From: Chloroflexales bacterium ZM16-3
GTDB taxonomy: Bacteria > Chloroflexota > Chloroflexia > Chloroflexales > Chloroflexaceae
Direction of reading: 5' to 3'
Assembly (NCBI GenBank): GCA_004138175.2
Contig: RYFE02000022.1
Coordinates: forward strand, 1-64,000
Length of the DNA stretch: 64,000 bases
The notes under the pieces are model-generated. The model was not told the origin of the DNA. It did no database searches and saw only the letters and a list, made by a program, of their open reading frames with translations. This document shows, piece by piece, positions 37,551-58,676 of this stretch (position 1 is its first letter; each line of letters starts with the position of its first letter). Position numbers and translations under genes: made by a program.

Positions 37551-37627
37551 ATGTGTGACATCACATGTAGGCGATCCACGCCGGCGGATGTCCATCAGTG
37601 ACGTAGGTCGTCATCGCCGCCTCGCAG

Positions 37628-37666
37628 CGAGCGCCCCGTCAGTGCTGACCATCGCCGGGGCGCTCG
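37628..37666 (+). promoter_or_regulatory. GC-rich hairpin in the leader of the 37744 gene
   Basis: cgagcgccccg at 37628-37638 pairs with cggggcgctcg at 37656-37666 around a 17-base loop. It falls between the predicted promoter and ATG 37744, so it would be in the 5' leader. No T-run follows; an attenuator role is possible but unproven. Confidence 0.4.
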
Positions 37667-37743
37667 CCTCGCCCCCGGCCTTTCAGGCGGCCGAAATCTC
37701 CGGTGGGCGGACGCCGTGAATCCACTCTAGGCACGGTGACAAC

Positions 37744-39276: not shown

Positions 39277-39322
39277 TTGGCGTGCCGAGGGGCCGACCTG
39301 CTCATAGAAAGGTCCCCGGCAG

Positions 39323-40447: not shown

Positions 40448-40456
40448 GACCAGCAT

Positions 40457-43400: not shown

Positions 43401-43801
43401 AGCTGGCACGGAAGAATATCGGGACGTTGCGCGAGCTAAGCAAGCTCGCCGCCCTCGGGGCCGATATCACGGCGGCGCAGGCCGCCGATCAGGAGCGGGG
43501 CAAGGCTGAGTTCCAGCAGCTACTACTCGCCAGCATCGAGCAGCGCATGCTGGCCATGGCCTACCTGCAGATCGTCACCCCGGCGAACAACTACCTGGCC
43601 CAGAATAGGCGCAAGCTCTACACGCTCCTCAGCCAACAACACCTGCAAAGCCCAGAGATCCGCGCGCAGATCCAGGCACATGCCATTCATGTGGTGCGCA
43701 GCTATCACCTCGATGCTGTACAAGAAAAGATTGGCCCGCTGGCATCTCTGGAGATGATCGCCGATCTATTCAGACTCCCGACCTACCTCGACTACGTATA
43801 A
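40457..43801 (+). CDS. STAND NTPase with TPR-like helical repeats
   Basis: The 1114-residue protein has an ATPase lead-in (LIGREPQLQQIRAQI), Walker A TADGGKGKT at residues 46-54 and Walker B VVWMLDTMEQLF near 155-166. A winged-helix region follows around 360-430 (LDYLSIMRRGLDSERL, FIKHRPDGRYFLHDELYQIY). From about 700 to the end there are helical repeats of TPR type (LARDHYRQAEYLLVHA, AIAYNTKALIATLNQRPDIG, ALEHFGQARAVAVGDDP). STAND proteins oligomerise on ligand binding to activate effectors; here the CHAT protease encoded 4.4 kb upstream is the obvious candidate effector. The ligand is unknown. Confidence 0.8.
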   Translation: MSIPPAAFSGALRPQRLIGREPQLQQIRAQIIDPGLGDAFRCVLITADGGKGKTRLLQEIDRTIAASGEPVIVLPLIDLADPTLHSVAAFLQRVSGALKDALGTAGHEMLRPFDTASEQYEQAHDSQKMISLKQANDSLISAFKRAYMQIVAGRRVVWMLDTMEQLFATPPEIADLIRFDSAIHLTEIGPTTYHWLLSFITDRTPNTTMLLAGRPVPGRWVAGISNALLQSDVTSIPADDDEEEAAPLAQVLPLSVDDFTVDQVDDYLAALQQELAQFPTLADQADFVSGLQQSADDREALYLLTEGNPIRLALYVDLLMSNGVFPEPFRMPLAALKQELATNRKQMLSSVDDSLLDYIASQLGDNLSQVLDYLSIMRRGLDSERLERIWGGTREESDAALGQLRALSFIKHRPDGRYFLHDELYQIYQLEFERRDEPTCAARRDHERAIYAQLIALCNQELRAQNQAILAFHLRPDDQSDQVQAELRARRIRRRQLQAERLHYSLYLDPARAFYEVYFELTEQAFTTYDFELDSLLQSEISGFFFGGTAHLNCLQTGMQTDDWEQLRFAVLHERVSGWIKRLTKSSLALQARELVEAALRDHAALVRQHYAGQPFADMLALYDQPVGRLLSAVFAEEWRACGQFAAIYSGSAQAAISEIGRLSASFETLMRGQPLVDLPEAGLSLLAPEFRNRLLNIIAQCTMFVGYAHATLNRFTLARDHYRQAEYLLVHARPPLETLLAEVKNNLSRALGELSEVDDALMICDEGATINRHLGLDYNLAIAYNTKALIATLNQRPDIGLRSAQLALRLFRHRLDLRGIGLALIQAGEGARRSWWAEADLQAQDELDPTLRSVAPTEQALRDLHNAVTIFAGLKEPLRQMESHSALACLYRDRANYLHQDVEGADFKQALEHFGQARAVAVGDDPKAKKFPSQELAILADWAWLYKRAGAYAEASRITAEALLIAPPELQLSSERPLDIELARKNIGTLRELSKLAALGADITAAQAADQERGKAEFQQLLLASIEQRMLAMAYLQIVTPANNYLAQNRRKLYTLLSQQHLQSPEIRAQIQAHAIHVVRSYHLDAVQEKIGPLASLEMIADLFRLPTYLDYV

Positions 43802-44081: not shown

Positions 44082-45488
44082 ATGCCGCCGGCTACGCCGC
44101 ATATTCTGATCGGTGAGACCGCCGCAATCTCGACTGACTGCGCCTGTCCTACACCACCCCCAACCGCCTCGCCCGTGCGAGCGGCGGGCCTCTACCAGCG
44201 CGCTGATGGGCTGCACCGCGACCAGATCGCTCCGGGGTGGGCGCTGCTCTGCAACACGCTGGCCGGCGGCGCGCCGGCCCTGCTCAGCCCCGCCGCCGAG
44301 GAGCGGCTGGCCGGGTTCGTGGGCCCGCGCCCGCTGGATCACCCCGACGACCTGCGCCTGGCCGAGGCCCGTCTGCTGGCCCAGATGGGCGCTCCCATCG
44401 GCCCGGTCGCCGTCACGGTCGACACACTCACCGCCTGGGTACATGTGACCAACGCCTGCAACCTGGAGTGCCCCTACTGCTATGTGCGCAAGTCGAGTGC
44501 GCAGATGAACCTGTCGAGCGGCCAGCGGGCGATCGATGCGCTGATCGCCACCGCGCTGCGCCGGGGCTTCCGTCGGCTGAAGCTGAAGTATGCTGGCGGC
44601 GAGGCCGCTCTGAGCTACCGCCTGATCGGCCAGATCCACGCCTACGCCGCCGATCAGGCCGCCCAGGTCGGCGTTGAGCTAGAGGCAGTGGTGCTCAGCA
44701 ACGGCACGGTGATGCCGGCCGCCTTCGCCGACTGGCTGGCCGCCTCGGGCGTCCGGCTGATGATCTCGGTCGATGGAGTCGGCGCGGACCACGACCGCCA
44801 GCGGCCATGGAAGGGCGGCGGCGCGGGTGCCTTCGCCGCCCTGGAGCGCAGCCTGGTCGAGCGACTGCTGCCACGCGGCATCCGGCCCACGGTCTCGATC
44901 ACGATCAACGGCATGAACGCCCAGACGGCCCATGCGGCGGTGCGCTGGGCGATCGGCCACGACCTGCCCTTCAGCCTGAACTTCTACCGTGAGAGCGACG
45001 CATCGGCCCACTACCGCGAGCTGCGCTACGAGGAGCAGCAGATCATCGTCGGCATGCGCGCGGCCTACGCCGTGATCGCCGAGCTGCTGCCGACCAGGCC
45101 CTTCCTCGACGGCCTGCTCGACCGGGTGCAGGCCGAGGCCCACGGCCACGCCTGCGGCGTCGGCCACAGCTATGTGGTGATCACCCATAGCGGCCAGGTG
45201 GCCCAGTGCCAGATGGAGTTGGATCGGGCCGCGCCCTTCGGGCCAGAGAGCGACCTGATCGGGCTAGTGGCCGTCGGCAGCATCCATAACCTCCCGGTGG
45301 ATGAGCGCGAGGGCTGCCGGGAGTGCCAGTGGCGCTACCGCTGCGCTGGCGGCTGCCCCGCGCTGACCCTGCGGACCACCGGGCGCAGCGATATCAGGTC
45401 GCCGAACTGCGCGATCTATCAGGCCCTGCTGCCCGAGGCGCTGCGCCTGGAGGGGCTGCGGATGCTGAGGCATCGCCTCGCCATGTAG
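44082..45488 (+). CDS. Radical SAM/SPASM enzyme (peptide-maturase-like)
   Basis: The 468-residue protein has the radical SAM cluster C126-NLE-C130-PY-C133 in VTNACNLECPYCYV, a GGE-type motif in LKYAGGEAAL, and a SPASM region with CRECQWRYRCAGGCPAL that holds auxiliary iron-sulfur clusters. Before the core lies a small region (PGWALLCNTLAGGAPALLS) like the peptide-recognition lead-in of RiPP maturases. The first 30 residues carry DCACPTPPPT, unusual at an N-terminus. GGAG precedes ATG 44082. Relatives modify peptides or sulfatases; no precursor or sulfatase is adjacent. A terminator follows, so it is a separate unit. Confidence 0.85.
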   Translation: MPPATPHILIGETAAISTDCACPTPPPTASPVRAAGLYQRADGLHRDQIAPGWALLCNTLAGGAPALLSPAAEERLAGFVGPRPLDHPDDLRLAEARLLAQMGAPIGPVAVTVDTLTAWVHVTNACNLECPYCYVRKSSAQMNLSSGQRAIDALIATALRRGFRRLKLKYAGGEAALSYRLIGQIHAYAADQAAQVGVELEAVVLSNGTVMPAAFADWLAASGVRLMISVDGVGADHDRQRPWKGGGAGAFAALERSLVERLLPRGIRPTVSITINGMNAQTAHAAVRWAIGHDLPFSLNFYRESDASAHYRELRYEEQQIIVGMRAAYAVIAELLPTRPFLDGLLDRVQAEAHGHACGVGHSYVVITHSGQVAQCQMELDRAAPFGPESDLIGLVAVGSIHNLPVDEREGCRECQWRYRCAGGCPALTLRTTGRSDIRSPNCAIYQALLPEALRLEGLRMLRHRLAM

Positions 45489-45812: not shown

Positions 45813-47438
45813 ATGAAAGATAAAATTCAAAACTGGCTACATGGTCTGGGATCCTTCGCTCTTGTCGGCTATATCGGCTTCTACTCCGAGGGAAATCCAC
45901 TCCACATCCTGGGGGCGTTGATCTGGTGGCTGTTGTTTGTGATCGCGGTAGAGTTCGACCTTAAGCAATCACAGCTGGTTCAAAACATTCTTGCGATCGT
46001 GGCTCTGCTAGCGGCCCCCTACCTGACAGTCATGACCCTCAGGATGGCTGAGCAGCCTGTGGCTGCGACTACCTGCCCGTCGGGTACTCCGGTCATTGAG
46101 AATACCGCTCCGGCTCGGCCAAGCACCACGCCGGCGATCTACGTGACTATGACGCCTGTCCGCCACAACCCCCAGCAATCGCAGAGCGCAGCTGATCGGC
46201 CGACCGTTGCTGCATCAACATCGATATCGGAGCCTGGCACTCAGTCGAGCGAGCACGATCAGGGGGAGAGCGCAGAGCCACAGGAGCCCACGCCCACCAT
46301 GTCGGCAGAGGCCCCGGCCCCGTCGGCTGAGATTCTGCCGACGACGGGCTTGGCACCAACTGCGGCGAACCCGGCGTCGCTGAATGTGCCGCTCTACCCG
46401 ACGGCAACGAGCTACCCCACGCCGCTACTTGGCACGCCGATCACTGCTCCGCTGGTCATCTTGCCCGCGCCTGGCGTGAGCACTGCGCCGGTATCGACGA
46501 CGACGAGTACGCCGGTATCAACGGCCACTAGCTCACCGACCGCCACGGCCACTAGCTCACCGACCGCCACGGCCACTAGCTCGCCGACCAACACGGCCAC
46601 CAGCACCGCCACGGCCACCAGCACACCTACTAACTCGCCGACCAGCACTGCCACCAGCACCGCTACGGCCACCAGCACCGCTACGGCCACCAGCACCGCT
46701 ACGGCCACCAGCACGCCGACCGGTGAGCCGACCAACACGCCGACCAGCACGCCGACTGGCGAGCCGACTGGCGAGCCGACCAGCACGCCGACTGGTGAGC
46801 CGACCAGCACGCCGACTGGCGAGCCGACCAGCACGCCGACTGGCGAGCCGACCAGCACGCCGACCGGTGAGCCGACGCCCGTCTGTACAGCCCGCCTGCC
46901 AATTGAACTGGCGATCACCATCGATAAGTCATCCTCGATGTCTGGACAGCAACTCACCGACGCGCAGACAGCGGCGACCCGGCTGATCGAGAGCCTTGAC
47001 TTCCAGCGCGACCGGGCGGCTGTTGTGAGCTTCGCCGACGCGGCATGGGTTGAGCAGCGGCTAAGCAGCGATCAGGATGCGCTCATTGCCGCAGTGCAGC
47101 AGCTCAACACCAAGGGTGGGACGAACATCGCGGCTGGGATCGCGTCAGCACAGCACCAGCTTGAGCGGTCGGCCCGCAGCGGCGAGGTCAGCCAGATCAT
47201 TGTCATCCTCTCTGACGGCGACTCGGATAGCGGTGCGGCTATTACGGCTGCGGCACATGCCCGTGACGCCAACATGCGGATCATTAGCATCGGATTGGGC
47301 GCCAATGCGAACACAGCATTGCTCCAGAGCCTTGTGGCCGACCCTGACGACTACTACTACGCACCGACATCGGCCGACCTGCCCGCGATCTACGAGTTCA
47401 TCGGCCAGCGGCTGAGCTGTATGGGTCAGGACGCCTGA
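45813..47438 (+). CDS. Membrane-anchored VWA-domain protein with Thr/Pro-rich linker
   Basis: From ATG 45813 (GAGGG) the protein is 541 residues. Residues 10-75 contain two hydrophobic segments (ILGALIWWLLFVIAV and NILAIVALLAAPYLTVM). Residues 80-355 are a Ser/Thr/Pro-rich linker, including STPTGEPT repeats. The VWA domain begins near 365: IDKSSSMSG gives the MIDAS Asp371, Ser373 and Ser375, followed by GGTNIAAGI and IIVILSDGDSDSG. The linker suggests that the VWA domain is held outside the membrane. It is the first gene after the second TGTC array and leads the ubiquitin-like operon. VWA domains bind protein ligands through metal; the partner is unknown. Confidence 0.85.
   Translation: MKDKIQNWLHGLGSFALVGYIGFYSEGNPLHILGALIWWLLFVIAVEFDLKQSQLVQNILAIVALLAAPYLTVMTLRMAEQPVAATTCPSGTPVIENTAPARPSTTPAIYVTMTPVRHNPQQSQSAADRPTVAASTSISEPGTQSSEHDQGESAEPQEPTPTMSAEAPAPSAEILPTTGLAPTAANPASLNVPLYPTATSYPTPLLGTPITAPLVILPAPGVSTAPVSTTTSTPVSTATSSPTATATSSPTATATSSPTNTATSTATATSTPTNSPTSTATSTATATSTATATSTATATSTPTGEPTNTPTSTPTGEPTGEPTSTPTGEPTSTPTGEPTSTPTGEPTSTPTGEPTPVCTARLPIELAITIDKSSSMSGQQLTDAQTAATRLIESLDFQRDRAAVVSFADAAWVEQRLSSDQDALIAAVQQLNTKGGTNIAAGIASAQHQLERSARSGEVSQIIVILSDGDSDSGAAITAAAHARDANMRIISIGLGANANTALLQSLVADPDDYYYAPTSADLPAIYEFIGQRLSCMGQDA
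46480..46880. repeat. In-frame minisatellite of the VWA linker
   Basis: The first part repeats 18-bp-like blocks of the agcaccgctacggccacc type (Thr/Ala/Ser). The second repeats 24-bp gagccgaccagcacgccgac units that encode EPTSTPTG. All periods are multiples of three, so length can vary while the frame is kept. Shadow frames arise on the minus strand. Confidence 0.85.
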
Positions 47439-47681
47439 CTCCCCTTGTGGCGCGGGGGCCAGTTGGCCCCTGCGCCCGCCCGCACCTCCCGACCTCTTCT
47501 GATCATCTGGCGCACGCAAATAGTGATCAATATGTTGCAGTGACAGCTTGGGAATAGGATATAATATGTATACGCCGGATACGTATGATCCCAAGGTTCG
47601 TGCTACGCCGCAACACATCGCCATAGCGCATTCAGGTGCAGGTTCTCATCTGAATACCCCCAGCCTAGCAGGGACACTGTG
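47439..47681. promoter_or_regulatory. Gap before the JAB gene with a candidate promoter
   Basis: ttgcag at 47535-47540 and a perfect tataat at 47560-47565 are separated by 19 bases, slightly long for a sigma-70 promoter. The gap of 240 bases has no gene and no TGTC array. The JAB-E2-E1 genes might therefore have a second, constitutive start besides read-through from the VWA gene. Confidence 0.4.
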
Positions 47682-50120
47682 ATGCCAACAGCGCCTACAC
47701 GGCTTTACATCACGCGGCAGGCCCTTCAGGCGGTCGAGCAAGAGGCGCTACGCTACGCGGATACGCAGGGCGTCGGCCACGAGACAGGCGGGGTTCTGAT
47801 CGGCCGCCGGCTCCAGGATCAGCCAGGCACGATCCTGATCATCACTGCCACCGGGCCGGGCGAGCACGCGGTACGCACGCCGGTCGAGTTCTCCCCCGAT
47901 GTCCAGTATGTGAACCGGCAGCTGATCACGGTCCGCGCGATCTACCCAGACATCGACTACATCGGCACCTGGCATAAGCACCCCAGCACATACCGCACCT
48001 TCAGCCCGGGCGACGTGCGCACGGCCCACGAGATCTTTAGTGACCCATCGTATGCGGTCGATGAGATCGTCAACCCAATCGTCTGGGTCGATGACGGGAA
48101 GGTGACCGCGCACTACTACTACATGAGTCGCCTGATGGCGCGGCAGGGCCGGGGCTTTGAACAGCTGGATGACGTGATTGTAGCGGTCATCCCCGATGAT
48201 CACCCGCTCGTGCGGCGCGAGCGGGCCGGCGCGACGCGGGTCAGCGACCGCCTGCCCCCGCTATGGGTGGACGAGGAGTGCGGTCGTCTGCAAACCCGTG
48301 GCTACGCCGTGCAGGTGCGCCACGAGCGCAATCTACAGGCATACCTGATCGTTGTGACCATCCCGACCCTCCCCGGCGTGACGATCACCTTCGTAGCATC
48401 CGAGCAGGGCTACCCGGGCGAGCGACCGCAGATCTTTATCGAGGGTACTGGGCGCGACGAGCCGGTGGACAGCGACAAGGCGTATGCGTATCTGGAAGGT
48501 CGCCTGGGCAAGGTCTACCTGGCCGACGTCGCCGACGCGATGGTCAACTACCTGCGCCGGCGCCAGGGCGCCGGTCGCCCGGCGCAGATCAAGCCGATTG
48601 CGGCGAGCCGCCACGATCCTGCGCAGCCCGCTTCGCCCGCGCCCGAGGCAGCTCCACCGCCGGTGCTGAAGACTCTGCGCCCGGCTGCCGCCCGGTCGAT
48701 CTGGCTGCTGTCCATCCCCGGGCTGCTGGTCGTGCTCGCGCTGGCCTGGCTGCTGCGCACGAGCGCGTCGCCGACGCCCACCACCGACTACACGGCGCTG
48801 TGGACGCAGATCCACAGCGCGATTAGTGAGTCCTCGGACACGAGCCTGCGCGCCGCGATCAATCAGCTGGAGCAGATCAAGAGCGAGGACCCAGGCGGGG
48901 CCTTCCTGGCCCAGAACCGCGAAGTCACCAGTACGCTCGTCCTGGCCTACACGCTGTTGGGAGATCAGCTTACCACCACCAACCCGCCGGACCTCGATGG
49001 CGCGGATCTGGCCTTTATCAGCGCGCTCAGCCTAAGCCCGCAGAACCCGACGGCCCAGGCCGGTCGCGAGCAGGTGCGGGTCAGCCTACAGGCGACGGCT
49101 GCGGCCAGCGCACTGCAAGATGATCGCGCCCAGCGCTGGCAGAATGTCGATGCCGCCGCCGACGCCAAGACGCGGATTACCCTGATCCAGGCGCTGCTCA
49201 CCGACGGCATTGCCACCGATATGAGTGGCACACCAACCGCCGAGCGGCTTCAGGCAGCGGTTGACGCGCAGGCGAGCCAGCTGCTCGCCGAGGCGACAGC
49301 TGCGGCACAGCAGGGCGACCGGGCCGCCGCGCTGAACACGCTACAGGAGGTCGCACAGCTTGATCCGGCACCCAGCGCCGCTATCCGCGAGGAGGCCAGC
49401 GATCAGATCCAGCAGATCGAGGCCCAGATCAGCGACGAGCAGCAATTTTTTACAGCGGCGTGGGCTGCCTATGATCAGGCGATCAAGGACAAGGATGTGA
49501 AAGGGGCGATCAGCGCCCTCGATACAATTGTTCAGCGAACCACTGAGCCGCTGCCCGACCCGAAGCGCTACCCGACCGACGGCTACGATCCGCGCATTGT
49601 GCAGGCGGGCCTGCTACTGGTTGACGCGAAGCTAAGCTACGCCGGCGACCTCCAGCGGGCCGGGGATATGGCCGGGGCGCGCGCGCAGTATGACACAACT
49701 GAAGCTACGCTGCATATAATGGAGCAGTCGAGCCGGCTGAAGGATGAGGTGGCGACACGACAGCGAACCTATCAGGATCAGTATGCGAAGTTTATCCAGG
49801 GGGAGACCTACTGGAGTCAATTCAATGATCTCTATAGCGACAGGAAGCTGAGCGCGGCATTGGATGAGCTCGACGGCCTAGCAAAGCTGGCGACATTCGG
49901 CCCCAATGCGCTCAACCCGCAGAACACCAAGCAGAGCGTCAGCGGGCTGATCTCCCAGATCAACCGGCAGCTCCATCCGCCGCCAACGTCGACGCCAACA
50001 CCAACACTAGCACCGACCAGCGAGCCGACCGCGACACCGACTAGCGAGCCGATCAGCGAGCCGACCGCGACACCAACCAGCGAGCCAACCGTGCCAGACC
50101 CGACCACACCGGCCCCATAG
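47682..50120 (+). CDS. JAMM/JAB peptidase with E2-like region, TM segment and TPR-like repeats
   Basis: The 812-residue protein starts at ATG 47682 (a GTG precedes it directly). The JAB domain has the full JAMM set: Glu34 in HETGG, His98-K-His100 in GTWHKHPS and the S-x2-D pair Ser108/Asp111. Residues about 200-300 (QVRHERNLQAYLIVVTIP, EQGYPGERPQIFI, LADVADAMVNYL) have the layout of an E2/RWD fold without a catalytic Cys. A membrane segment (IWLLSIPGLLVVLALAWLL) lies near 335-355. Beyond it are TPR-like helical repeats and a TPTPT tail, probably extracytoplasmic. JAMM peptidases cleave ubiquitin-like isopeptide bonds or mature Ubl precursors. Confidence 0.85.
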   Translation: MPTAPTRLYITRQALQAVEQEALRYADTQGVGHETGGVLIGRRLQDQPGTILIITATGPGEHAVRTPVEFSPDVQYVNRQLITVRAIYPDIDYIGTWHKHPSTYRTFSPGDVRTAHEIFSDPSYAVDEIVNPIVWVDDGKVTAHYYYMSRLMARQGRGFEQLDDVIVAVIPDDHPLVRRERAGATRVSDRLPPLWVDEECGRLQTRGYAVQVRHERNLQAYLIVVTIPTLPGVTITFVASEQGYPGERPQIFIEGTGRDEPVDSDKAYAYLEGRLGKVYLADVADAMVNYLRRRQGAGRPAQIKPIAASRHDPAQPASPAPEAAPPPVLKTLRPAAARSIWLLSIPGLLVVLALAWLLRTSASPTPTTDYTALWTQIHSAISESSDTSLRAAINQLEQIKSEDPGGAFLAQNREVTSTLVLAYTLLGDQLTTTNPPDLDGADLAFISALSLSPQNPTAQAGREQVRVSLQATAAASALQDDRAQRWQNVDAAADAKTRITLIQALLTDGIATDMSGTPTAERLQAAVDAQASQLLAEATAAAQQGDRAAALNTLQEVAQLDPAPSAAIREEASDQIQQIEAQISDEQQFFTAAWAAYDQAIKDKDVKGAISALDTIVQRTTEPLPDPKRYPTDGYDPRIVQAGLLLVDAKLSYAGDLQRAGDMAGARAQYDTTEATLHIMEQSSRLKDEVATRQRTYQDQYAKFIQGETYWSQFNDLYSDRKLSAALDELDGLAKLATFGPNALNPQNTKQSVSGLISQINRQLHPPPTSTPTPTLAPTSEPTATPTSEPISEPTATPTSEPTVPDPTTPAP

Positions 50121-50158
50121 GTCAGTAGAGAATAGACCCGTATAGAGCAGGGGGAAAG

Positions 50159-50353
50159 ATGAGCGAGCAGCAGGAACCCAAGAAGCCCCGGATCAAAGAC
50201 ATGGAGGAGTTGCGCCGGGCGATCGAGAGCTCCGAGGAGGTGATCGTCGACTCCAGCGGCTCGATCCATCTCCCCAGCGACCCGAAGGTTGCCAATACAC
50301 CGCCGCAGAACCGCACTGCGCTCAAGCCACAGCGCTGGTTCGCCAAGCACTAG
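50159..50353 (+). CDS. Small conserved-context protein (64 aa) between JAB and E2
   Basis: The protein starts at ATG 50159 with a strong GGGGGAAAG. It is charged and contains a short helix (MEELRRAIESSEEV), a possible beta strand (VIVDSSGSIHLP) and a basic tail ending QRWFAKH. Its position, where such operons often place the ubiquitin-like modifier, makes it notable. However, it is shorter than a beta-grasp fold and lacks a Gly-Gly end, so I do not call it a modifier. It might be a target, adaptor or regulator. Confidence 0.65.
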   Translation: MSEQQEPKKPRIKDMEELRRAIESSEEVIVDSSGSIHLPSDPKVANTPPQNRTALKPQRWFAKH

Positions 50354-50369
50354 CTGAGAGGGAGATCCT

Positions 50370-50807
50370 ATGAGCGAGCCCACCTCTGCGGTCTGGTATG
50401 AGAGCGACCCGCCCCGGCTGGTGCAGGAGCGCGATGCCATGCAGGCCCGCTTCCAACAGTTTCGCCTGCGCCGCAGCGGGCGCACACTCTACTGGGATGG
50501 CCACCTGACCAGCAATAGCGGTGAGACCTACCGGATCGTGATTAGATACCCGGACAACTTCCCTGACCTGCCGCCCAAGGTCTTCCCGATCGAGCCGGAT
50601 ATTCTCACCTTGCATAACGAGGCGACCCGCGAGCTGAAGCACCAGTTTAGCGATGGCTCGCTCTGCCTGTTTCACCCGCACGACCGCTTCTTTGAGCGGA
50701 GGAGCACGGCGGTGACGGTGATCGCCGCCGCCGCCACATGGTTCGCCGCGTATGAGTACTGGCTGTACTCAGAGAAGACGATCTGGCCGGGCCGCGAGGC
50801 GGACTGA
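50370..50807 (+). CDS. E2-like (UBC-fold) conjugating enzyme
   Basis: The 145-residue protein has the classic E2 order: YRIVIRYPDNFPDLPPKVFPI (beta strands and the P-P turn), then HQFSDGSLCLFHPHD with probable catalytic Cys99, His91 before it and Trp124 in the final helices (AAATWFAAYEYW). This matches prokaryotic E2 families that work with a ThiF-type E1 and a JAB protease. GAGGGAG precedes ATG 50370. It accepts an activated Ubl from E1 and passes it to targets or lipids. It starts 17 bases after the small gene and ends 30 bases before E1. Confidence 0.88.
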   Translation: MSEPTSAVWYESDPPRLVQERDAMQARFQQFRLRRSGRTLYWDGHLTSNSGETYRIVIRYPDNFPDLPPKVFPIEPDILTLHNEATRELKHQFSDGSLCLFHPHDRFFERRSTAVTVIAAAATWFAAYEYWLYSEKTIWPGREAD

Positions 50808-50836
50808 TCGGCAAACGACGTAGACGAGGTAGCCCC

Positions 50837-52024
50837 ATGCTTGTCACCCTGCCCGCAGAGCTGATCGACCAGGCCATAGAGAGCGCGCTCCCCGGCGGGA
50901 CGATCTACGGCCGCCTCTGCGACGATGGCGACCTGGCCCAGGTACACGGGCTGAGTCCCGACGCCGGCGCGGCGATAGGACACTGGTCGCGGGATGGTGA
51001 GCAGGCACCAGAGCGCGGGCTCTGGCTGGTCTTCGCCGTGACCGGCGACCCGCAGGCATACCTGCTCGGCTCCGACGATGTCCACTCGCTAGAGTGTCGG
51101 GTGATCCGTGCCCGCGAGGACTACCTGGCCCGCGCACGCGGCATCCTGCCCGACGGGGCGCTGGCCGGGCGCTGTGTGACGGTGATAGGCCTGGGCTCCG
51201 GCGGCTCGCTGATCGCCACCCAGCTGGCCCGCTGCGGCGTCGGCCACATGCGCCTGGTGGACTTCGACCGCCTGGAGGCCCACAATATCGCTCGCCACGC
51301 CTGCCCGCTCGCCGATATCGGTCGCTACAAGACGCGCGCCCTGCGCGACCTGCTGCTGGCCCACTCGCCGCTGATCCGGGTGGAGACTTGGGAGGCCAAT
51401 GTGCTGGAGCAGCCGACGGCCCTAGCCCAGGCGCTGTCCAGCGCTGACCTGGTTGTGGCGGCGGTCGATGGCGAGGCGGCCAAGCTGGCGATCAACCGGG
51501 CCTGCTGGGCTGCGGGCATACCGACGGTCTACGCCGCGGCCTACAACCGGGCCTTCGGCGGCGATGTGTTCTGCGCCCTGCCGCCCGACGGGGCATGCTA
51601 CAACTGCCTGAGCAGCGTGATCGGCGAGCTGTTCGCCCCGCCGCCCACCGCCGCCAGCGACTTTAGCGCCGGCTACGCCGATCCCAGCCGCATGGCCGAC
51701 ATGGTCGCCCAGCCCGGCCTGGCCATGGACGTGGGGGTGATCGCCCTGCTCGCCGCACGGGTGGCCCTGGAAACCCTGCTACGCGGGCACGACGGTGTGC
51801 CTGAGCCGCTGCCCGACGCCTGGCTGCTCTTCGGCAACCGCGCCGAGTGGGTCTTCCGCGAGCCGCTCGACCACCACTTTGTGGCGGTGCCGCGCCGCGA
51901 CGACTGCCCGGTCTGTAACTACGCCCAGTCGGTCCAGTCCCGGCTGGGCATCAGCCCAGCGGAGGCCGTCAGCCGCCGCGATTCGATCCTGGCCGAGATC
52001 GACTCGGAGGACGCCGAGGCGTAA
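50837..52024 (+). CDS. ThiF/E1-like activating enzyme
   Basis: The 395-residue protein has an N-terminal 105-residue region without clear family and then an adenylating Rossmann domain: GLGSGG at 118-123, Asp143 in VDFDRLE, Asn150 and Arg153 in HNIARHAC, Lys165 in RYKTRAL, and Asp211 in VVAAVDGE. Two CxxC pairs (Cys254/Cys257 and Cys357/Cys360) should bind zinc as in ThiF/MoeB. Cys246 in DVFCALPP is a candidate for thioester formation. It would adenylate a Ubl C-terminus and transfer it to the E2. The N-terminal region might be a degenerate JAB fold, as in some fused E1 proteins, but I am unsure. Confidence 0.88.
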   Translation: MLVTLPAELIDQAIESALPGGTIYGRLCDDGDLAQVHGLSPDAGAAIGHWSRDGEQAPERGLWLVFAVTGDPQAYLLGSDDVHSLECRVIRAREDYLARARGILPDGALAGRCVTVIGLGSGGSLIATQLARCGVGHMRLVDFDRLEAHNIARHACPLADIGRYKTRALRDLLLAHSPLIRVETWEANVLEQPTALAQALSSADLVVAAVDGEAAKLAINRACWAAGIPTVYAAAYNRAFGGDVFCALPPDGACYNCLSSVIGELFAPPPTAASDFSAGYADPSRMADMVAQPGLAMDVGVIALLAARVALETLLRGHDGVPEPLPDAWLLFGNRAEWVFREPLDHHFVAVPRRDDCPVCNYAQSVQSRLGISPAEAVSRRDSILAEIDSEDAEA

Positions 52025-52030
52025 CCCACT

Positions 52031-53002
52031 ATGCCCACTAACCGCGACACGATCATCCCGATGGAGCGACAGCCCGCCGACCCTCTCGCCGGGCCTGACT
52101 GCCTGGGCGCGCTGAACGCCCTGCTGGGCGACTCGCAGCGGGTGGCCCTGATCCTCGGGCCGATCCAGCTGGCCGATGGCCTGCGCATCCCCACCGGCGC
52201 GGCCCTGCGCGTGCCGGTCGGCCACGAGCTCGTGGTGGTGTCCGGCCAGCGCCTGCGCGAAATCATGCCGGCCGGGGTCTACTCAGCAGCCTCCTGGCTC
52301 GGCCAGCCCGAGACCGAGCTGCACCTGGTAGATGTGCGCGAGCACAACCTGGAGTTCGATGTCCAGCAGGAGATCTACCTGAGCTACCCAATCACAGCCC
52401 ATGAGCAGATCCTGGGCCTGCAGGATCTGCGCTTCGGACTGACTTACCGGGTGCTGGCCGCCGAGCGGGCCGCCCTCGATGTCGCCCAGCCGCTGCTGGG
52501 GCTCTATGACGCGGCGCTGCACCTGCTGCTGGAGTCGCTCAACCGGGCGCAGGTCGATCAGATCATGCCGATCCTTGAGCGGGTGCCCGGCGAGCTGCGT
52601 GCGCGCGGCGACTGCTTCCGCCTGGGGATTGGCGTCACCAAAATCAACCTGATTGGCTGGCCGCAGTCGGCGAACATCCCCCAGCCGGAGCCATCGTCCG
52701 ACACGCTGCTGGCAATGCTTGAGGCCCAACTCGACGAGTTGCGCCAGCGTCAGCCGCCCGCCCTGGGCCAGGTGCGCCCGGTCAAGGACGGCTACATGGT
52801 CAGTGTGCCGCTGATTGACCATAAGAATAACGTGATGCTGCTGCGGATCATCTGCGACCGCAGCTACCCGCAGCGGGCGCCGCAGCTCAGCGTCTGGCTG
52901 GACGAGCAGCGCCAGGACTATCGGCCCGCCCTGCTCGATAATTGGAAGCCTAGTGATACGCTTGCGAGCCTGATCGACGCCGTGATCGCCCACGCCGACT
53001 GA
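52031..53002 (+). CDS. SPFH-like protein with C-terminal inactive E2/UEV-like region
   Basis: The 323-residue protein starts seven bases after the E1 stop. Residues 35-215 resemble band 7/SPFH domains: LRVPVGHELVVVSGQ, LVDVREHNLEF, LGLQDLRFGLTYRVLAAERAA and a late LGIGVTKINLIGW. Residues 235-323 have an E2-type outline (GYMVSVPLIDHKNN, DRSYPQRAPQLSVWL, LLDNWKPSDTLASLIDAVI) but no catalytic Cys, like UEV/RWD domains. SPFH domains scaffold membranes, so the protein may dock the conjugation machinery at the membrane. Both assignments are by eye. Confidence 0.6.
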   Translation: MPTNRDTIIPMERQPADPLAGPDCLGALNALLGDSQRVALILGPIQLADGLRIPTGAALRVPVGHELVVVSGQRLREIMPAGVYSAASWLGQPETELHLVDVREHNLEFDVQQEIYLSYPITAHEQILGLQDLRFGLTYRVLAAERAALDVAQPLLGLYDAALHLLLESLNRAQVDQIMPILERVPGELRARGDCFRLGIGVTKINLIGWPQSANIPQPEPSSDTLLAMLEAQLDELRQRQPPALGQVRPVKDGYMVSVPLIDHKNNVMLLRIICDRSYPQRAPQLSVWLDEQRQDYRPALLDNWKPSDTLASLIDAVIAHAD

Positions 53003-53013
53003 GAAAGCTGCCC

Positions 53014-54672
53014 ATGAGCCAGACTTCCCACCCAGAAGACGAACTGCCGATCAGCGAGGACGAGCGCCGCATGATCGAGGAGCTAAAGGCGCGCAAGCGG
53101 CTCCCGGATGAGTCCGAGCCTGATCCCGCGCCTGCGCCCCGCCCCGGCGAGCGCCTGAATTCGTATGGCGAGTGGGTATCCGAGGCAGCTGCACCGACCC
53201 CGGTGCCGGCACCCGCGCCGGTGACGCCCGCTCCCGACCCTGCGCCGGAGCCGCCCGCGCCGCCCGCGCCGGAGCCGCCCGCGCCGCCGGTGACGCCCGC
53301 GCCGGAGCCGCCCGCGCCGACGCCGCCGGTGATGTCGGAATCGCTAATCAGCCCGCGCCGCCTACCAGCACATGCGGATGAACGCCGCCAGACCGTTCAG
53401 CACAGATCAGACCCTACTGAGACAAAGCCGCCTCAGAAGAAAGGTGTCAGCTCACCAGAGAACCCCTTCGTTCGGCAACCGCAGCCAGAACCCGCCCACC
53501 TCAGGCCAAGCTGGCTCTCAGGCATCTGGCTCCCAATCATCGGGGTCGGGGGCATTATGCTGCTCCTCTTAATGGTCTTTGTGGTGCCTGGCATGCTGCA
53601 AGGCACCACGTCGGACGGCACGCCGACCGCCCTGCCCGTAACCAGCCCATCCCCATCGGTCGAGCCGGCTGCAGGGGTCAGCCCGACTGTCGCCCCACCG
53701 ACATCGACCCCCGCCATCCCGACCCTTACCATCGACCCGCTGGAGACGAAGCGGGCCGCCTTCGCGCTCGGGCTTGAGCAGTACACACAGAAACAATGGG
53801 CAGATGCCGCCGCTGCGTTTGGCCAGGTCTTTGAGCGTGATCCTGACTATGAGTCCACGCCGGTGCTGCGCGACGTGCTGACCGCCTCGCTCTACAACCA
53901 GAGCATTGGCGAGATCAACGGTGCGCTCAGCACCGAGCGCAGAGATATTCAAGCAATCCGTGATCGCTTCACGCGGATTATGACAATCATCGACGGAGCG
54001 AGCACCGGCGATCCTACGCTCCAGGACACCTACCAGGACCGACGGGATCGGGCTGCGGAGTGGGGCAATATCCTGGATGCCTACCTTGCTGGTCGCACGC
54101 AGATCGACGAAGAGAGCTGGGAGGCGGCGATCACCACCCTGGATGCTATCCCGCTCAGCCGGGATGATTATGGGAATAGCGTGCGCATCCTCGACATCGC
54201 CGCGCAGCGCATGGCCGCCTACATGGGCTATGGTGCCCAGCTCACCGCGGCGGGCAGCTACGAAGAGGCTCGCGCCCAGTATGAGCAGGCCAGCACCCTC
54301 GCCGACTCAGGAGTCAATATATCGCCTGTCCAGACGGCGATCGCCGCCCTTCCCATCCCCACGCCGACGGCCACCCCGCCTACCCCCACCGCCATCCCGG
54401 CGAAGCTGCGGGTCAGCGTGAGGAACTACAACGATGACCCGACCTGCATCTCGCTGGGAGTCAGCGGCATCAACACCAGCGGCTGGTCCTTCTCGGTGGA
54501 TGGGGTCGGGATCAGGGGGACGATCGACACCGCCGGGAACGGGCGGCTCTGCGGGCTGGCCTGGAAGCAAGAAGTGACGATCTCGATCTTCAACGCCTCG
54601 GGCCGGGTGGTCTCTGGCGGCAGCGGCGTGCCCTCGCGGGGCAGCGCGATCATGGTCGCGGTCTGGCGCTAA
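53014..54672 (+). CDS. Membrane protein with TPR-like repeats and C-terminal beta domain
   Basis: The 552-residue product starts with a charged cytoplasmic part (SEDERRMIEELKARKR), a Pro/Ala-rich stretch with APEPPAPP repeats and one membrane segment near residues 175-195 (WLPIIGVGGIMLLLLMVFVV). Outside the membrane lie TPR-like repeats (LGLEQYTQKQWADAAAAFGQ, YEEARAQYEQASTLADSG) and a final beta-rich region ending GVPSRGSAIMVAVWR. The topology mirrors the JAB protein: cytoplasmic part, single TM, external TPR. It is the last gene of the operon, 12 bases after the SPFH-like gene. Confidence 0.75.
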   Translation: MSQTSHPEDELPISEDERRMIEELKARKRLPDESEPDPAPAPRPGERLNSYGEWVSEAAAPTPVPAPAPVTPAPDPAPEPPAPPAPEPPAPPVTPAPEPPAPTPPVMSESLISPRRLPAHADERRQTVQHRSDPTETKPPQKKGVSSPENPFVRQPQPEPAHLRPSWLSGIWLPIIGVGGIMLLLLMVFVVPGMLQGTTSDGTPTALPVTSPSPSVEPAAGVSPTVAPPTSTPAIPTLTIDPLETKRAAFALGLEQYTQKQWADAAAAFGQVFERDPDYESTPVLRDVLTASLYNQSIGEINGALSTERRDIQAIRDRFTRIMTIIDGASTGDPTLQDTYQDRRDRAAEWGNILDAYLAGRTQIDEESWEAAITTLDAIPLSRDDYGNSVRILDIAAQRMAAYMGYGAQLTAAGSYEEARAQYEQASTLADSGVNISPVQTAIAALPIPTPTATPPTPTAIPAKLRVSVRNYNDDPTCISLGVSGINTSGWSFSVDGVGIRGTIDTAGNGRLCGLAWKQEVTISIFNASGRVVSGGSGVPSRGSAIMVAVWR

Positions 54673-55186
54673 TCGTCCGCCGGTGTGATTATGAGAGCGT
54701 GCCCCTTACCGTATTGGCGGTCGTGGATCGGGACGTGTCATTGGACATAGCCTCCTACTGTTACCAGGTATTGTACCCTGCCAGACTGGACGAGGATCGC
54801 AGCCCTGCACCTTACTATTACCGCTGCGTGGTCGGCTCGCACACCTTCGGCCTCATGGCGCTCAAGGCCAACCCGACCTCGCGCCAACACAGCGCCGCCG
54901 CCTCGCTGATGCGTAGGCCGGCGAAGAGCATCAGTAGCACTGCCCTGCGGTTCCGCGCCCAGACCCAGCGCTGAAGCTCTGTCAGCTCATCCGGCTCCTC
55001 AAGCGTCTTCAGCAGCCGACGCAGCTCGGCATGAGCCAGCGCGTGCGGGGCGGGCTTGCGCAGCCGCGGCCAGACGATAAGAAGGGCTCGCGCAAAGACG
55101 CAAAGGCGCAGCAAGGCGGAGGGGTAGGGGGAGCTGTTTTAGGCTGCAATATCTGACATGTGTGCTCGCAACAAAGGGGATTCACA
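54673..55186. other. Island right edge, no intact gene
   Basis: Apart from the recombinase remnant at 54818-55114 I see no gene. A mixed tract gcaaagacgcaaaggcgcag at about 55093-55115 is a simple repeat. Composition drops relative to the operon. Confidence 0.5.
54818..55114 (-). pseudogene. Tyrosine recombinase (phage integrase) fragment
   Basis: The minus-strand frame contains AELRRLLKTLEEPDELTELQ followed by LLMLFAGLRISEAAALCWRE, the box I region of tyrosine recombinases with its catalytic Arg. Box II (HxxR) and the Tyr nucleophile are missing, and the frame ends in unrelated sequence. It is a remnant lying right beside the accessory island, consistent with integrative acquisition. Confidence 0.7.
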
Positions 55187-58100
55187 ATGGCACGTAGAGG
55201 GTTGGCGTTGAGCCTGATCATGGTTATCGGCCTCGGAGCCGCCATTGCGTTTGGCCCGGCGGAGCCGGCGGTGGCGCAAACAGACTGGAGCAGCGTCGGG
55301 CTGGGCCAGTTCATCAACGCGCTGGTGGTCGACCCCCGCAACCCCGTCCAGGTCTTCGCCACGGTGGATAGTGGCCTGCGTGTAAGCCAGGACTCCGGGG
55401 CAAGCTGGGGGCCGTTCATCACTGTGAGCACCTCGGGGCCACTGCAAAGCCTGGCGATCAACCCCGTCAGCGGCGTGCTGGTTGTGGTTGTGGGCGATGG
55501 GCAAATCCGGCGCAGCGTCAATGGGGGCGTAACCTGGAGTGCTCCGCAATCCGGCCCGGAAGGGCAGATAGTGCGCGATCTACTCTACACTGGTGGCAAC
55601 CCACCCGTGCTCTATACTCACAGTGAGAGCCAGATCTTCCGTAGCGCCGACGACGGCGTGAACTGGAGCAACGTGACGGGTAACCTGCCCGACGGCAGCC
55701 CCCGCACCATCAGCCTGTTCGCGCTCGCCGCCGACTCGCGCATACCAACCCGGCTCTATGTGGGGCGCTACGGCGGTCTGGGCGGCGGCCTCTTCCGCAG
55801 CCAGGACGGCGGGGCAAGCTGGAGCCAGCCCGCCCTGACCAACCCTGGCGGCTCGACGCCCGATATTGTCAGCGTCGCGGTGAGCCCCACCAACCCGGAG
55901 ATCGTCCTAGCCGGCAGCTACGGCACCGGCCGGATCTTCCGCAGCACCGACAGCGGCGGCTCATGGAGCGCCTTCGCCCTGCCCTTAGGGCCTTTCGAAG
56001 TCGCATATGTTAACGATCTGTATTTTGACCAGACCGCGCCCGGGCGGGTTTTCGCGGCTGTGGGTGGTAGCGGCAGTCAATCAGCCGGAATTTACGTCTC
56101 GCGGGACAATGGAGCGATCTGGACGCGTCTCGATGCCAGCAGCCCATCACCCTTAACCGGAAACCTGACCATCGCAACTGTGGCCGGGCCATTTGGCGAT
56201 GTGGTTCTGGTCGTAGATGGCGGCGTGATCTACCGCCGCACCGGGGCCTCGGCTGTGCCCAATCTGAGCGTGAGTCGCATCGAAGTGACCCAGGCGATCC
56301 AGACCCCCGACCGCAGCGTCACATTGGTGCAGAATCGCCCGACGATCGCCCGGGTCTACCTCAACGTCGAGAGCGACAGCGATGTCCAGGGGGCGAGCGC
56401 CGTGCTCTACGCGACCCGCAACGGCCAGCCGCTGCCAGGGTCGCCGCTGCGCCCGATCAACCCCGGCGGGGTGATCACAGCCGTGCGCAGCCCGAATGCC
56501 GAGCGCTTTGAGCACACCCTCAATTTCATCATCCCCAGCTCATGGCACCCCGGCGGGCTCATGGCCCTCTCGGCGGAGGTCGACCCCGACAACCGGATCA
56601 CCGAGCGCAACGAGAACGACAACCGCAGCCCGAACTACCTGAACACCTTCCTGAATGTCACACGGCTGAAGACCGTGCTAATACCAATTGAATACCAGCG
56701 CAATGGCGTTGGACCAGTGCTGCGGATCAATCTGCGCGACCTGCCGGCCTTCGGCATGCAGGGCGTCTACGACACCTTCCCGATCGCGGGAGCTGCGAAC
56801 AGCGTCCACAGCCCCTATCACTTCACCGGCGACCTGACAACCGGGGCGGGCTGGAGCCAACTTCTCTACGAACTGGCATTGCTCCGTGCACGCGAACTGG
56901 CGGTGAGCAACATAGGCGATGCGCTCACGCTGCCGAAGTACTACGGCATGCTGCCGAATCTCGCTGGCTCACCCTACCTGGGCCTGGCCTATCGCAACAG
57001 CGCAGTGGGCATCGGGATCGGCTCCAGCCTTGACACCACTGCCCACGAGCTCGCCCACACCTTCGGGCTGCAGCACGCACCCTGCGGCGCAACCATGAAC
57101 CCTGACCCGAACTACCCGATCGCCGAAGGCCGGATCGGCTTTGTTGGCCTGAATGTGCGGCTGCGCCAGCCGATGCCGACCAGGTACGGTGATCTCATGA
57201 GCTACTGCAAGCCCCGCTGGATCTCGGCCTATAACTACGAGAAACTCTTCGATACCCTGAACCAGATCTCACTGGCGCAAGCCGGGCCGGCCCAGGCCCC
57301 CGAGCCAGCCTGGCTAGTGGGCGGCGCGATCGGGCCTGGCGGACTATCCGGCGCGCTGAGCCTGGCCGAGCCGCTGGCAAACGCCATCACCGTCACGGCA
57401 AGCGGCAGCGGGGCCTACCGCCTGGAGTTGTGGAACGCCGGCGGTGTGGCCTTCGCATACAGCTTCAACGCCGAGCTCCCCGAGGCTCCCACAACCAGCG
57501 GCCTGAGCGCAGGCTTCGCTTTTGTGGTGCCCCGATCGAACGACATCACCGAACTGAGGCTGCTGGCCGGCGACACCCTGCTCGACAGCATTAGTGTGGC
57601 CCAATTTGCCCCGAGCGTGAGCGCCCAACTAGCCTCGTTCAATCCCAGCGACAGCCGGCGCAGTGTGACCTGGAGCGTTAGCCCGGCGCCGGGCGAGTCG
57701 GACACGACGAGCGTGCGCTACAGCGCCGACGGCGGCCAGAGCTGGCAGGTATTGGGGCAGACTGACGACCTGGCGGTCAGCAGCCTCGACTTTGATCTGG
57801 GCGACCTGGCCGCGAGCGCCGACGGCCTGATCGAGGTCGTAGTTGTGCGCGGGGCAACCGCCGGTAGCGCCCAGGTGAGCATCGGGCCAGTGGCGAACAA
57901 GCCGCCGGCGGTACAGATCGTCCAGGGTACGCAGTTACAGGTTGCCACGAACGAGCCACTGGTGCTGCAGGGCAACGCCTACGATCACGAGGACGGCACC
58001 ATCCCCGACGGCAACTATAGCTGGCGCGACGAGGCCGGGCAGTTCCTCGACAGCGGCCCGCTGCTAGAGCTGCCGCCGCTGGATGCGCTGACCAGCCGCG

Positions 58101-58201
58101 TGATCAGCCTGAGCGTCACCGACAGCGCCGGGGTCACAGCCCAGGCCAGTGTGACCATCACCGCTGGCGAGCGGATCTACCTGCCGCTATTGCGGCGATG
58201 A
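55187..58201 (+). CDS. Secreted metzincin-like protein with beta-propeller repeats
   Basis: The 1004-residue protein from ATG 55187 (AAGGGG) has a signal peptide (ALSLIMVIGLGAAIAF, then AVAQ). Residues 25-370 contain BNR/sortilin-type propeller repeats (SQDSGASW, RSVNGGVTW, RSTDSGGSW). A CARDB-like region follows near 375-480 (RPTIARVYLNVES). The protease core has HELAHTFGLQH at 620-630, the metzincin HExxHxxGxxH zinc motif, and a Met-turn-like GDLMSYC. The C-terminal 350 residues are Ig-like domains. It probably acts at the cell surface. The substrate is unknown. Confidence 0.82.
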   Translation: MARRGLALSLIMVIGLGAAIAFGPAEPAVAQTDWSSVGLGQFINALVVDPRNPVQVFATVDSGLRVSQDSGASWGPFITVSTSGPLQSLAINPVSGVLVVVVGDGQIRRSVNGGVTWSAPQSGPEGQIVRDLLYTGGNPPVLYTHSESQIFRSADDGVNWSNVTGNLPDGSPRTISLFALAADSRIPTRLYVGRYGGLGGGLFRSQDGGASWSQPALTNPGGSTPDIVSVAVSPTNPEIVLAGSYGTGRIFRSTDSGGSWSAFALPLGPFEVAYVNDLYFDQTAPGRVFAAVGGSGSQSAGIYVSRDNGAIWTRLDASSPSPLTGNLTIATVAGPFGDVVLVVDGGVIYRRTGASAVPNLSVSRIEVTQAIQTPDRSVTLVQNRPTIARVYLNVESDSDVQGASAVLYATRNGQPLPGSPLRPINPGGVITAVRSPNAERFEHTLNFIIPSSWHPGGLMALSAEVDPDNRITERNENDNRSPNYLNTFLNVTRLKTVLIPIEYQRNGVGPVLRINLRDLPAFGMQGVYDTFPIAGAANSVHSPYHFTGDLTTGAGWSQLLYELALLRARELAVSNIGDALTLPKYYGMLPNLAGSPYLGLAYRNSAVGIGIGSSLDTTAHELAHTFGLQHAPCGATMNPDPNYPIAEGRIGFVGLNVRLRQPMPTRYGDLMSYCKPRWISAYNYEKLFDTLNQISLAQAGPAQAPEPAWLVGGAIGPGGLSGALSLAEPLANAITVTASGSGAYRLELWNAGGVAFAYSFNAELPEAPTTSGLSAGFAFVVPRSNDITELRLLAGDTLLDSISVAQFAPSVSAQLASFNPSDSRRSVTWSVSPAPGESDTTSVRYSADGGQSWQVLGQTDDLAVSSLDFDLGDLAASADGLIEVVVVRGATAGSAQVSIGPVANKPPAVQIVQGTQLQVATNEPLVLQGNAYDHEDGTIPDGNYSWRDEAGQFLDSGPLLELPPLDALTSRVISLSVTDSAGVTAQASVTITAGERIYLPLLRR

Positions 58202-58659: not shown

Positions 58660-58676
58660 TGAGTATTGGTGGAGAT

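Follow-up and report, generated by a model that had tools for sequence, protein, structure and literature searches.

The evidence supports a membrane-linked E1-E2-JAMM system, matching neither Bil nor the cyclic oligonucleotide-based antiphage signalling system (CBASS), in the window, the whole stretch of 64,000 nucleotides analysed here (Chloroflexales bacterium ZM16-3, contig RYFE02000022.1, positions 1 to 64,000; source genome of 6.27 Mb). Besides a catalytic E2 (P0004), a ThiF-type E1 (P0005) and a JAMM protein (P0002), its operon encodes a protein of 64 amino acids, P0003, which keeps constant company with this type of E2 and has an aromatic end followed by a variable tail. We prefer the reading, to which we give a probability of about 0.58, that P0003 is the modifier in a working E1-E2 cascade, a short protein without the beta-grasp fold and with an aromatic end. 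A broader picture is offered more tentatively, at somewhat under even odds: a class of E1-E2-JAMM systems with a modifier of its own that is short, probably disordered and linked via an aromatic residue at its C-terminus. Such a class would be near core in one Chloroflexota order, and in the class Chloroflexia it would have grown into a membrane machine carrying many inactive E2 domains and tied to type VII secretion.

The small protein and the predicted conjugation enzymes

P0003 had no match in Pfam, NCBIfam or PADLOC. Its homologues were located by their C-terminal motif among short open reading frames (ORFs) just 5' of the E2 gene, and a profile made from nine aligned sequences was run on 158 genomes of the class. 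E2s of the P0004 type occur there in ten copies (E 2e-48 or better) in seven genomes, and the ten strong matches of the small-protein profile all lie beside those ten E2 copies. The small protein ends in (K/R)PxRWF in all ten; this is the exact C-terminus in seven copies of family f8, and it is followed by AKH, ALFTRA and SSRRLVWR in the three Chloroflexales copies. A conserved motif and then a variable tail fit what is expected of a modifier precursor. The first-pass annotation had seen no modifier in the operon; sequence profiles indeed gave no ubiquitin-like Pfam match at E up to 1 in any of the seven operon proteins, but P0003, probably the modifier precursor, had been overlooked as a candidate. 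At two of the loci (L036 and L040) the contig end falls inside the operon, so these are incomplete.

The small-protein profile also gave three weaker matches: L096 has the N-terminal half by itself, L097 has this half twice within an FHA protein, and in G004 the reading frame is doubtful. The FHA protein (L097:7521-8822) comes from G445 and has, besides the repeated half, a stretch resembling the tail of the TPR membrane protein of L038. Four further genomes with E2 matches hold distant E2s, which stand beside genes judged by eye to encode CD-NTases in G028, G428 and G496 (E2-only CBASS) and form part of an E1-E2 fusion in G431.

The enzymes named in the first-pass annotation were borne out. 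P0004 was matched at E up to 0.1 by 20 PADLOC families (E2, E1-E2 and one cyclase model; the best value is given in Table 1) and, below its cut-off, by Pfam Prok-E2_B; its Cys99 is invariant in 12 of 12 aligned E2s, and the neighbourhood of this E2 was found conserved in relatives when loci were compared. Seven aligned E1s all keep GLG(S/T)GG (GLGSGG in P0005) and both CxxC pairs, C254/C257 and C357/C360, and the N-terminal 95 or so residues of P0005 have BLAST matches in L005 and L006. P0002, which starts at GTG 47679 or ATG 47682 (residues are counted from the latter), has all of E34, H98, H100, S108 and D111, as does its Chloroploca homologue. The pattern was found in six JAMM proteins from the window and related loci, all six with an intact HxH; a seventh, in L006, reads HSH by eye. 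An AlphaFold model of P0002, built from two sequences (mean pLDDT, the predicted local distance difference test score, of 71), gave Foldseek matches of the JAMM domain to Rpn11, BRCC36-type and Caldiarchaeum Rpn11-homologue structures. In this model the domain folds like Rpn11, and it has the residue pattern of a JAMM isopeptidase, making it a predicted enzyme.

The aromatic end has a parallel in E2-only CBASS. Twelve PDB sequences matched the E2 profile at E 0.01, and the best of them, 8hsb_B, the E2 of a CdnG-E2 complex (next match 2.8e-5), was the only one not named a ubiquitin-conjugating enzyme. We take 8hsb to be the Serratia marcescens system of Yan et al. 2024, which fits the Y405 numbering, and in that system the E2 itself reportedly processes the cyclase tail. 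In the 8hsb cyclase chain, 407 residues long, the stretch VPKNTFYG ends at residue 406, with Tyr405 directly before Gly406. A table in a 2025 review (PMC12135389) lists Y405 as the joined residue of a prokaryotic cGAS and E2 as the enzyme, citing Yan 2024. We compared 20 cyclase ends encoded 5' of E2-only CBASS E2s, five from Chloroflexota genomes and 15 from plasmids, several of them near copies. For the plasmids, 16 of 42 matching records were fetched; L070 was left out (cyclase gene broken by a transposase), and two cyclases are partial (L073, cut by the record start, and L075, a 204-residue ORF). In 17 of the 20 the end is [FY][FYH]G plus one to seven residues; the others read FAG-GPR (L074) and FHCG-VQDK (L080), with none in L077. 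P0003, ending KPQRWF-AKH, shares the aromatic pair and the short tail. A related E2 that joins a protein via an aromatic residue after its tail has been removed is, by analogy, just what the forms ending in RWF and in RWF plus a tail suggest. In the f8 form no tail remains to be removed, and this would account for the E1 of these operons, which E2-only CBASS lacks. Precedent for a modifier without the beta-grasp fold comes from Jenson 2023 and Kruger 2024. One scan of viral contigs with the E2-only profile yielded 23 stretches that fit the pattern, none of which encodes a relative.

A compact form in one order, and the proposed cascade

A smaller version of the system was found in the order to which genome G279 belongs, of which 151 genomes were searched with a wider E2 profile (A5). 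The E2 is present in 133 of them, and in 87 of the 90 good ones; a small protein with the end RAWY is present in 132. Both occur in 128 genomes, the E2 alone in 5, the small protein alone in 4 (these genomes are 74-84% complete) and neither in 14. Fisher's test of this co-occurrence gave 1.6e-12, a value that is not a true probability because the genomes are related. In several of 14 hand-picked genomes the two genes are on different contigs or separated by about 14-36 kb or more; since such distant genes still co-occur, the link between them is not only positional.

Thirteen regions were fetched. One (L121) is an E2-only CBASS copy, whose cyclase end SPSHRFYGD is not among the 20 above, and in another (L119) the contig ends early. 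The 11 complete loci encode E2, JAB and E1 in that order, and in ten of them the small protein follows 3' of this trio, ending in SLRKRRAWY or SLKKRRAWY plus zero to five residues (AR, VKK, G, none, G, LPE, DTE, TPARQ, GR and LE); in the eleventh (L115) the small gene lies 152 kb away. These small proteins have a conserved middle, ITPEEFARLQKAGQVHIDxRGRV in most. A protein of 113 amino acids beside the E1 of L021 (end LFGNVPE) was considered as the modifier and dropped, being found in one genome of the 151, with the RAWY protein on another contig. Draws from the phylum gave matches in 6/400, 8/400 and, at E 1e-10, 5/340 genomes; G279 was the only match placeable in its order, which the draws seem to sample thinly, and these figures are therefore not estimates of prevalence. 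Omnitrophota and archaeal E1 matches (L017-L020) were set aside, as their ORFs included no match to the E2 profile or to the RWD profile described below at E 0.01.

If P0003 is the modifier, the cascade could run as follows. The tail after KPQRWF would be removed, either by the E2, as reported for the enzyme of E2-only CBASS, or by the JAMM domain. The E1 would then adenylate the aromatic C-terminus, Phe61 (or Ala62, were the cut one residue later), and P0003 would pass as a thioester to Cys99 of the E2 and from there to a target, with the JAMM enzyme reversing the conjugation. The conjugation of P0003, the cut site, the targets and a purpose in the control of envelope or secretion are all what we infer from the observations given here.

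Several points weigh against this reading. We know of no modifier ending in a C-terminal Phe or Tyr other than that cyclase. The glycine of the cyclases is not common to P0003, and the likeness of RWF to the cyclase ends is a short match, noticed before it was tested, with a chance of 0.002-0.01 per protein. In an E2 tree of 26 rows, which included eight of the ten P0004-type copies and left two out, those eight are split from 15 rows of E2-only CBASS by a 99/96 branch, so the CBASS chemistry is carried over by analogy. No cysteine is conserved between the two CxxC pairs in the seven aligned E1s, across which C156 is the only other invariant cysteine. Two of the ten Chloroflexia operons are damaged: the E1 in G442 (C56) is a remnant, and in G444 (C438) the small gene is interrupted by an in-frame stop. 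Only a weak likeness links the RWF small proteins to the RAWY ones (hhalign E 0.001, probability 22%). In the compact loci, 13 JAMM proteins were examined (L021 included), and of the 12 with the pattern, 10 read HKQ in place of HxH and two HKH (L117 and L124); in L115 the HxH pattern was not found. The remaining residues of the pattern are retained. The HKQ reading makes deconjugation doubtful in the order of G279; judged by these residues, the zinc site may be weak or dead in most compact-form JAMMs, as if a peptidase had turned into a binding module.

The strongest doubt comes from the E2s themselves. Two of them begin with LKPTRWYAAW (L038) and LRPMRWYAAW (L005), the same motif as the end of P0003 (L006 is less clear), and (K/R)PxRW(F/Y) at an E2 N-terminus points to a docking motif. 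P0003 could accordingly be an adaptor that brings the E2 to the membrane. The RWF end of P0003 would then mimic the N-terminal extension of the E2 and dock on E1 or E2, its VxVDxxGRL stretch would dock on the RWD/TPR scaffold, and the true modifier would be another protein. It would suit such a role that the N-terminal module occurs without RWF in two other G445 proteins, one with an FHA domain, and that several tails of TPR membrane proteins carry an (F/V/I/L)-(D/N)-x-x-G-E-(L/W)-like motif, LNSYGEW in P0007, which resembles VxVDxxGRL by eye. An adaptor leaves unexplained why the motif is placed at the C-terminus or before a variable tail in two lineages, as well as its likeness to the cyclase end, which is joined by an aromatic residue, and we consider it unlikely, though the most serious competitor to P0003 as modifier.

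It is less likely still that E1 and E2 work on a small molecule, in a peptide-modifying pathway or on the C-terminal end of a different protein of the operon. A radical-SAM protein, with SPASM-like cysteines by eye, is encoded upstream of the operon at 44082-45488, and the L006 operon is likewise bordered by part of a homologue, its end (69% identity); on this view P0003 would be the precursor of a peptide natural product. MccB, a peptide-adenylating relative of E1, is among the PDB matches of the E1 profile. One would not expect a pathway of this kind to include JAMM and E2 enzymes, and the radical-SAM gene adjoins the operon in two of the 15 loci compared, the other 13 giving no match. Radical-SAM peptide maturation was therefore rejected as the main explanation and is kept as a minor rival.

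Probable membrane scaffold, neighbouring genes and type VII-like context

The seven ORFs, P0001-P0007, lie on the plus strand (Table 1), with intergenic gaps of 240, 38, 16, 29, 6 and 11 bases in order; the close spacing described in the first-pass annotation, mostly below 40 bases, thus applies to five of the six gaps. The 240-base exception separates P0001, a VWA protein that had been counted as part of the operon, from P0002, and it holds a GC-rich hairpin (fold z -2.0) and a promoter-like site of a kind no commoner than in shuffled sequence. This gap, and the lack of any BLAST match of P0001 at E 1e-3 in the 14 further loci of the comparison, make it probable that the VWA gene is a separate neighbour outside the conjugation unit, and we rejected it as a component. 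A protein at L055:4227-5843 looks VWA-like, by eye only.

Table 1 Features of the operon in the window, with the basis for each assignment
Feature	Position	Strand	Basis
P0002: JAMM domain, inactive E2/RWD-like domain, one transmembrane segment, outer TPR-like and Pro/Thr-rich part	47679..50120	+	Pfam Prok-JAB 5.7e-6; Foldseek; catalytic residues; transmembrane segment 335-364
RWD/E2-like domain of P0002 (model residues 194-297 from ATG 47682)	48261..48572	+	Profile match 1.1e-20 (in seed); AlphaFold topology
P0003: 64-amino-acid small protein, proposed modifier precursor	50159..50353	+	Homologue beside 10/10 E2 copies; alignment of nine
KPQRWF, conserved C-terminal motif of P0003	50324..50341	+	P57, R59, W60 and F61 invariant in 9/9 aligned
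AKH, variable residues that follow KPQRWF and would be cut off	50342..50350	+	Differs in each of three Chloroflexales copies; absent in seven f8 copies
P0004: catalytic E2, Cys99	50370..50807	+	PADLOC E2 1.5e-19; best PDB match of E2 profile 8hsb_B 5.4e-12
P0005: E1 of ThiF/MoeB type, N-terminal part of ~95 residues	50837..52024	+	ThiF 2.8e-33; best PDB profile match MoeB 4.6e-24; alignment of seven
P0006: SPFH-like protein with inactive E2/RWD-like tail	52031..53002	+	Homology to Chloroploca Band_7 protein
E2/UEV-like tail of P0006 (residues 221-323)	52691..52999	+	AlphaFold blocks pLDDT 62-83; Z 11.8 to Ube2W
P0007: long cytosolic tail with LNSYGEW motif, one transmembrane segment (166-200), outer TPR-like part, C-terminal domain	53014..54672	+	TPR matches below cut-offs; transmembrane segment and motif

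Three operon proteins, P0002, P0004 and P0006, had been described as E2-like, only one of them catalytic, and this was upheld. A profile seeded by 15 E2/RWD-like regions, picked by eye in the window and its relatives, was run over 1154 ORFs of 16 loci. At 1e-6 or better it matched 19 ORFs, of which 15 had served as seeds, and it spans residues 197-292 of P0002 and 230-322 of P0006, both of which were in the seed. The next nine matches (3e-4 to 0.02) were the unseeded catalytic E2s of eight loci and a second JAB protein of L005; the E2s of L040, L041 and L021 gave no match. In the compact loci the profile matches nine of 11 JAB proteins at E 0.01, and the Chloroploca locus has five clear RWD/E2-like copies and one weak match. 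Compared profile to profile with the E2 alignment it gave E 1.7e-5 (probability 78%). Searched singly, two of the 15 seeds had a Pfam RWD match at E up to 1 (the better one 9e-4). The cysteine motif LCL, which the E2s carry, is missing from the inactive copies in the seed alignment. For P0002, JAMM structures fill the Foldseek matches listed and the RWD part rests on the profile and on AlphaFold topology, which gives the expected order of a helix, four strands and two helices.

The tail of P0006, for residues 235-323 of which an inactive E2-like region had been proposed, has an E2 fold in its model: all 50 PDB matches listed are titled E2, UEV or FANCL structures (Z 9.9-11.8), and the best, Ube2W, has a VIA Z of 11.8 and a root-mean-square deviation of 2.8 over 101 residues. 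The SPFH-like part of the description stands less firmly. P0006 itself had no Pfam match at E up to 1, it shares 27-29% identity with a Chloroploca protein that matches Band_7 at 2.5e-8, and the SPFH part of the model, mostly at pLDDT below 50, is too poor to use.

Hydrophobic segments taken as membrane-spanning are present in P0001 (27-79), P0002 (335-364) and P0007 (166-200), in agreement with the earlier count of at least three membrane proteins; residues 221-241 of P0002 and 289-315 of the E1 are hydrophobic but inside folded domains and were not counted. For P0007, earlier called a membrane TPR protein, the membrane segment holds and the TPR matches are below their cut-offs; its C-terminal domain is common to L006 and to a YukD-repeat protein in L056. 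A W(M/T)xE(K/N)-type motif occurs four times in the TPR protein of L037, eight times in the Ser/Thr kinase of L037 and eight times in the TPR protein of L042, with shuffles near zero; this pattern and the one in the TPR tails given above were both written after the sequences had been seen. The kinase is a Ser/Thr kinase-WD40 protein (L037:1373-4882); its eight motifs, WMxEKxG-like, lie in its linker, and the motif is shared by the tail of the TPR membrane protein next to it.

The membrane segments, outer TPR-like parts and repeated cytosolic motifs suggest, at the level of sequence, a tethered assembly, and the 19 RWD/E2-like ORFs together with the repeated TPR-tail motifs suit a tethered machine. 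In this view the JAMM and SPFH-like proteins, by their inactive E2/RWD domains, and the TPR proteins, by their tail motifs, would hold the machinery at the membrane.

Some relatives carry type VII-like genes nearby. L041 has WXG100 (0.003) and YukD (1.2e-4) matches, both below cut-offs, in the same run as an RWD membrane protein, and L040 is similar by likeness; in L042 an ATPase with five FtsK stretches lies about 5 kb from the E2. The C-terminal domain that P0007 shares with the YukD-repeat protein of L056 is a further link of this kind. In the genome of the window, contig C55 has a YukD gene (7.5e-8, over the cut-off) beside an FtsK-type ATPase with three FtsK stretches; a WXG-like ORF of 123 amino acids there had no Pfam match. 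Among the 14 window genes scanned, a part of those present, no FtsK/EccC ATPase or WXG match was found. Two f8 loci (L057:10038-15910 and L058:4734-10577) encode a YukD-TPR membrane protein and an FtsK-type ATPase with an RWD/E2-like membrane protein between them; the YukD match of L057 (3e-4) is below its cut-off, and no E2 was matched in the 20 kb fetched for either. Downstream of the Chloroploca operon (L005:1731-2372 and L005:2956-5769) lie genes for a HerA-type ATPase (4e-8) and for a small protein with a weak match to a nuclease domain of a contact-dependent inhibition (CDI)-type toxin (0.0015, below cut-off), which suggest a context of export and toxin.

YukD was reportedly proposed by Burroughs, Iyer and Aravind in 2011 as the modifier for some prokaryotic E1-E2 sets. 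A YukD-like beta-grasp protein encoded elsewhere in the genome would find favour in the C55 gene and in the YukD-TPR genes of the L041 and L040 runs, but it is improbable as the modifier here: E2-bearing G030, G444 and G445 gave no YukD match at E 0.01 in a search insensitive enough to miss the L040 and L041 copies too, YukD is present in relatives where no such E2 was found (G002, G004 and G009), and the YukD of B. subtilis is described as not conjugated in PMC1779556.

The type VII-like and HerA links support, at the level of gene neighbourhoods, a possible role of the system in secretion or at the envelope. The lean of the first-pass annotation towards phage defence is not supported by these neighbourhoods, with type VII-like genes or the CDI-type toxin match near some relatives; a compact form near core in one order would also be unusual for a defence system.

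Other neighbours of the operon were noted. Upstream, at 33852-43801, a cluster encodes a CHAT-AAA protein (CHAT 8.9e-24) and has two AAA_16 matches over the cut-off; without a BLAST match in the other 14 loci compared, it is probably a separate conflict system. Downstream, at 55160-58201, lies a gene for a protein of about 1000 residues with BNR/sortilin-like repeats and, by eye, a metallopeptidase-like HELAH motif, followed on the minus strand by a transfer-messenger RNA gene (58667-59038) with the tag ANNKNWARASYGSMALAA.

Comparison with known systems

If P0003 is the modifier, ubiquitin-like conjugation needs neither the ubiquitin fold nor a terminal glycine. This would break the rule by which the modifier of an E1-E2 cascade is either a second-messenger cyclase or a beta-grasp protein ending in glycine. 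The compact unit of four small genes, which most genomes sampled from one order possess, would illustrate the beginnings of such cascades, and the membrane form would suggest a role for RWD/UEV-like domains in bacterial membrane proteins and post-translational control of type VII-like secretion.

A close relation is with E2-only type II CBASS (8hsb), which has a related E2, an upstream protein with an end of two aromatic residues and a short variable tail, and no beta-grasp modifier. Its modifier is the cyclase and no E1 gene adjoins its E2, whereas here the gene 5' of the E2 encodes P0003 and not a CD-NTase, and a separate E1, a JAMM protein and membrane proteins are present. Pup is a modifier of about 64 residues without the beta-grasp fold, and the Pup-proteasome system resembles the operon in the short length of its modifier. 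P0003 differs in ending in KPQRWFAKH rather than GGQ/GGE, and no Pup-ligase match was found among the seven proteins scanned.

Type II CBASS with Cap2 and Cap3 shares the E1, E2 and JAMM activities and a modifier without the beta-grasp fold. In Cap2, as Jenson 2023 and Kruger 2024 describe it, E1 and E2 are fused, and the residue by which the cyclase is joined is Gly or Ala; the window, in contrast, has separate E1 and E2 genes and no Gly or Ala end of this kind. Bil (BilABCD) likewise has separate genes for modifier, E2, JAMM and E1. PMC11354881 describes BilA with two ubiquitin-like domains and BilB with a CEHH motif, in which the C is followed by E, H and H at +6, +8 and +13; P0004 has D105, F107 and S112 at the corresponding places, and none of the seven proteins gave a ubiquitin-like Pfam match at E up to 1. 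With no Cap2 fusion, no BilA by sequence profile, no CEHH motif and no CD-NTase gene 5' of the E2, the original view that this is not a known Bil or CBASS form is sustained.

Gene sets of E1, E2 and JAB are also known from prokaryotes (Iyer 2006). Those with YukD or poly-Ubl differ from the present operon, in which no Ubl was found and which has instead a short aromatic-ended protein and RWD-bearing membrane proteins. No E1-E2 set whose partner is short and aromatic-ended was seen described in the open-licence literature searched. The E2, the ThiF-type E1, the JAMM protein and the RWD domains are of known kinds; the aromatic-ended small partner appears to be new, and there is a fair chance that the system represents a new class.

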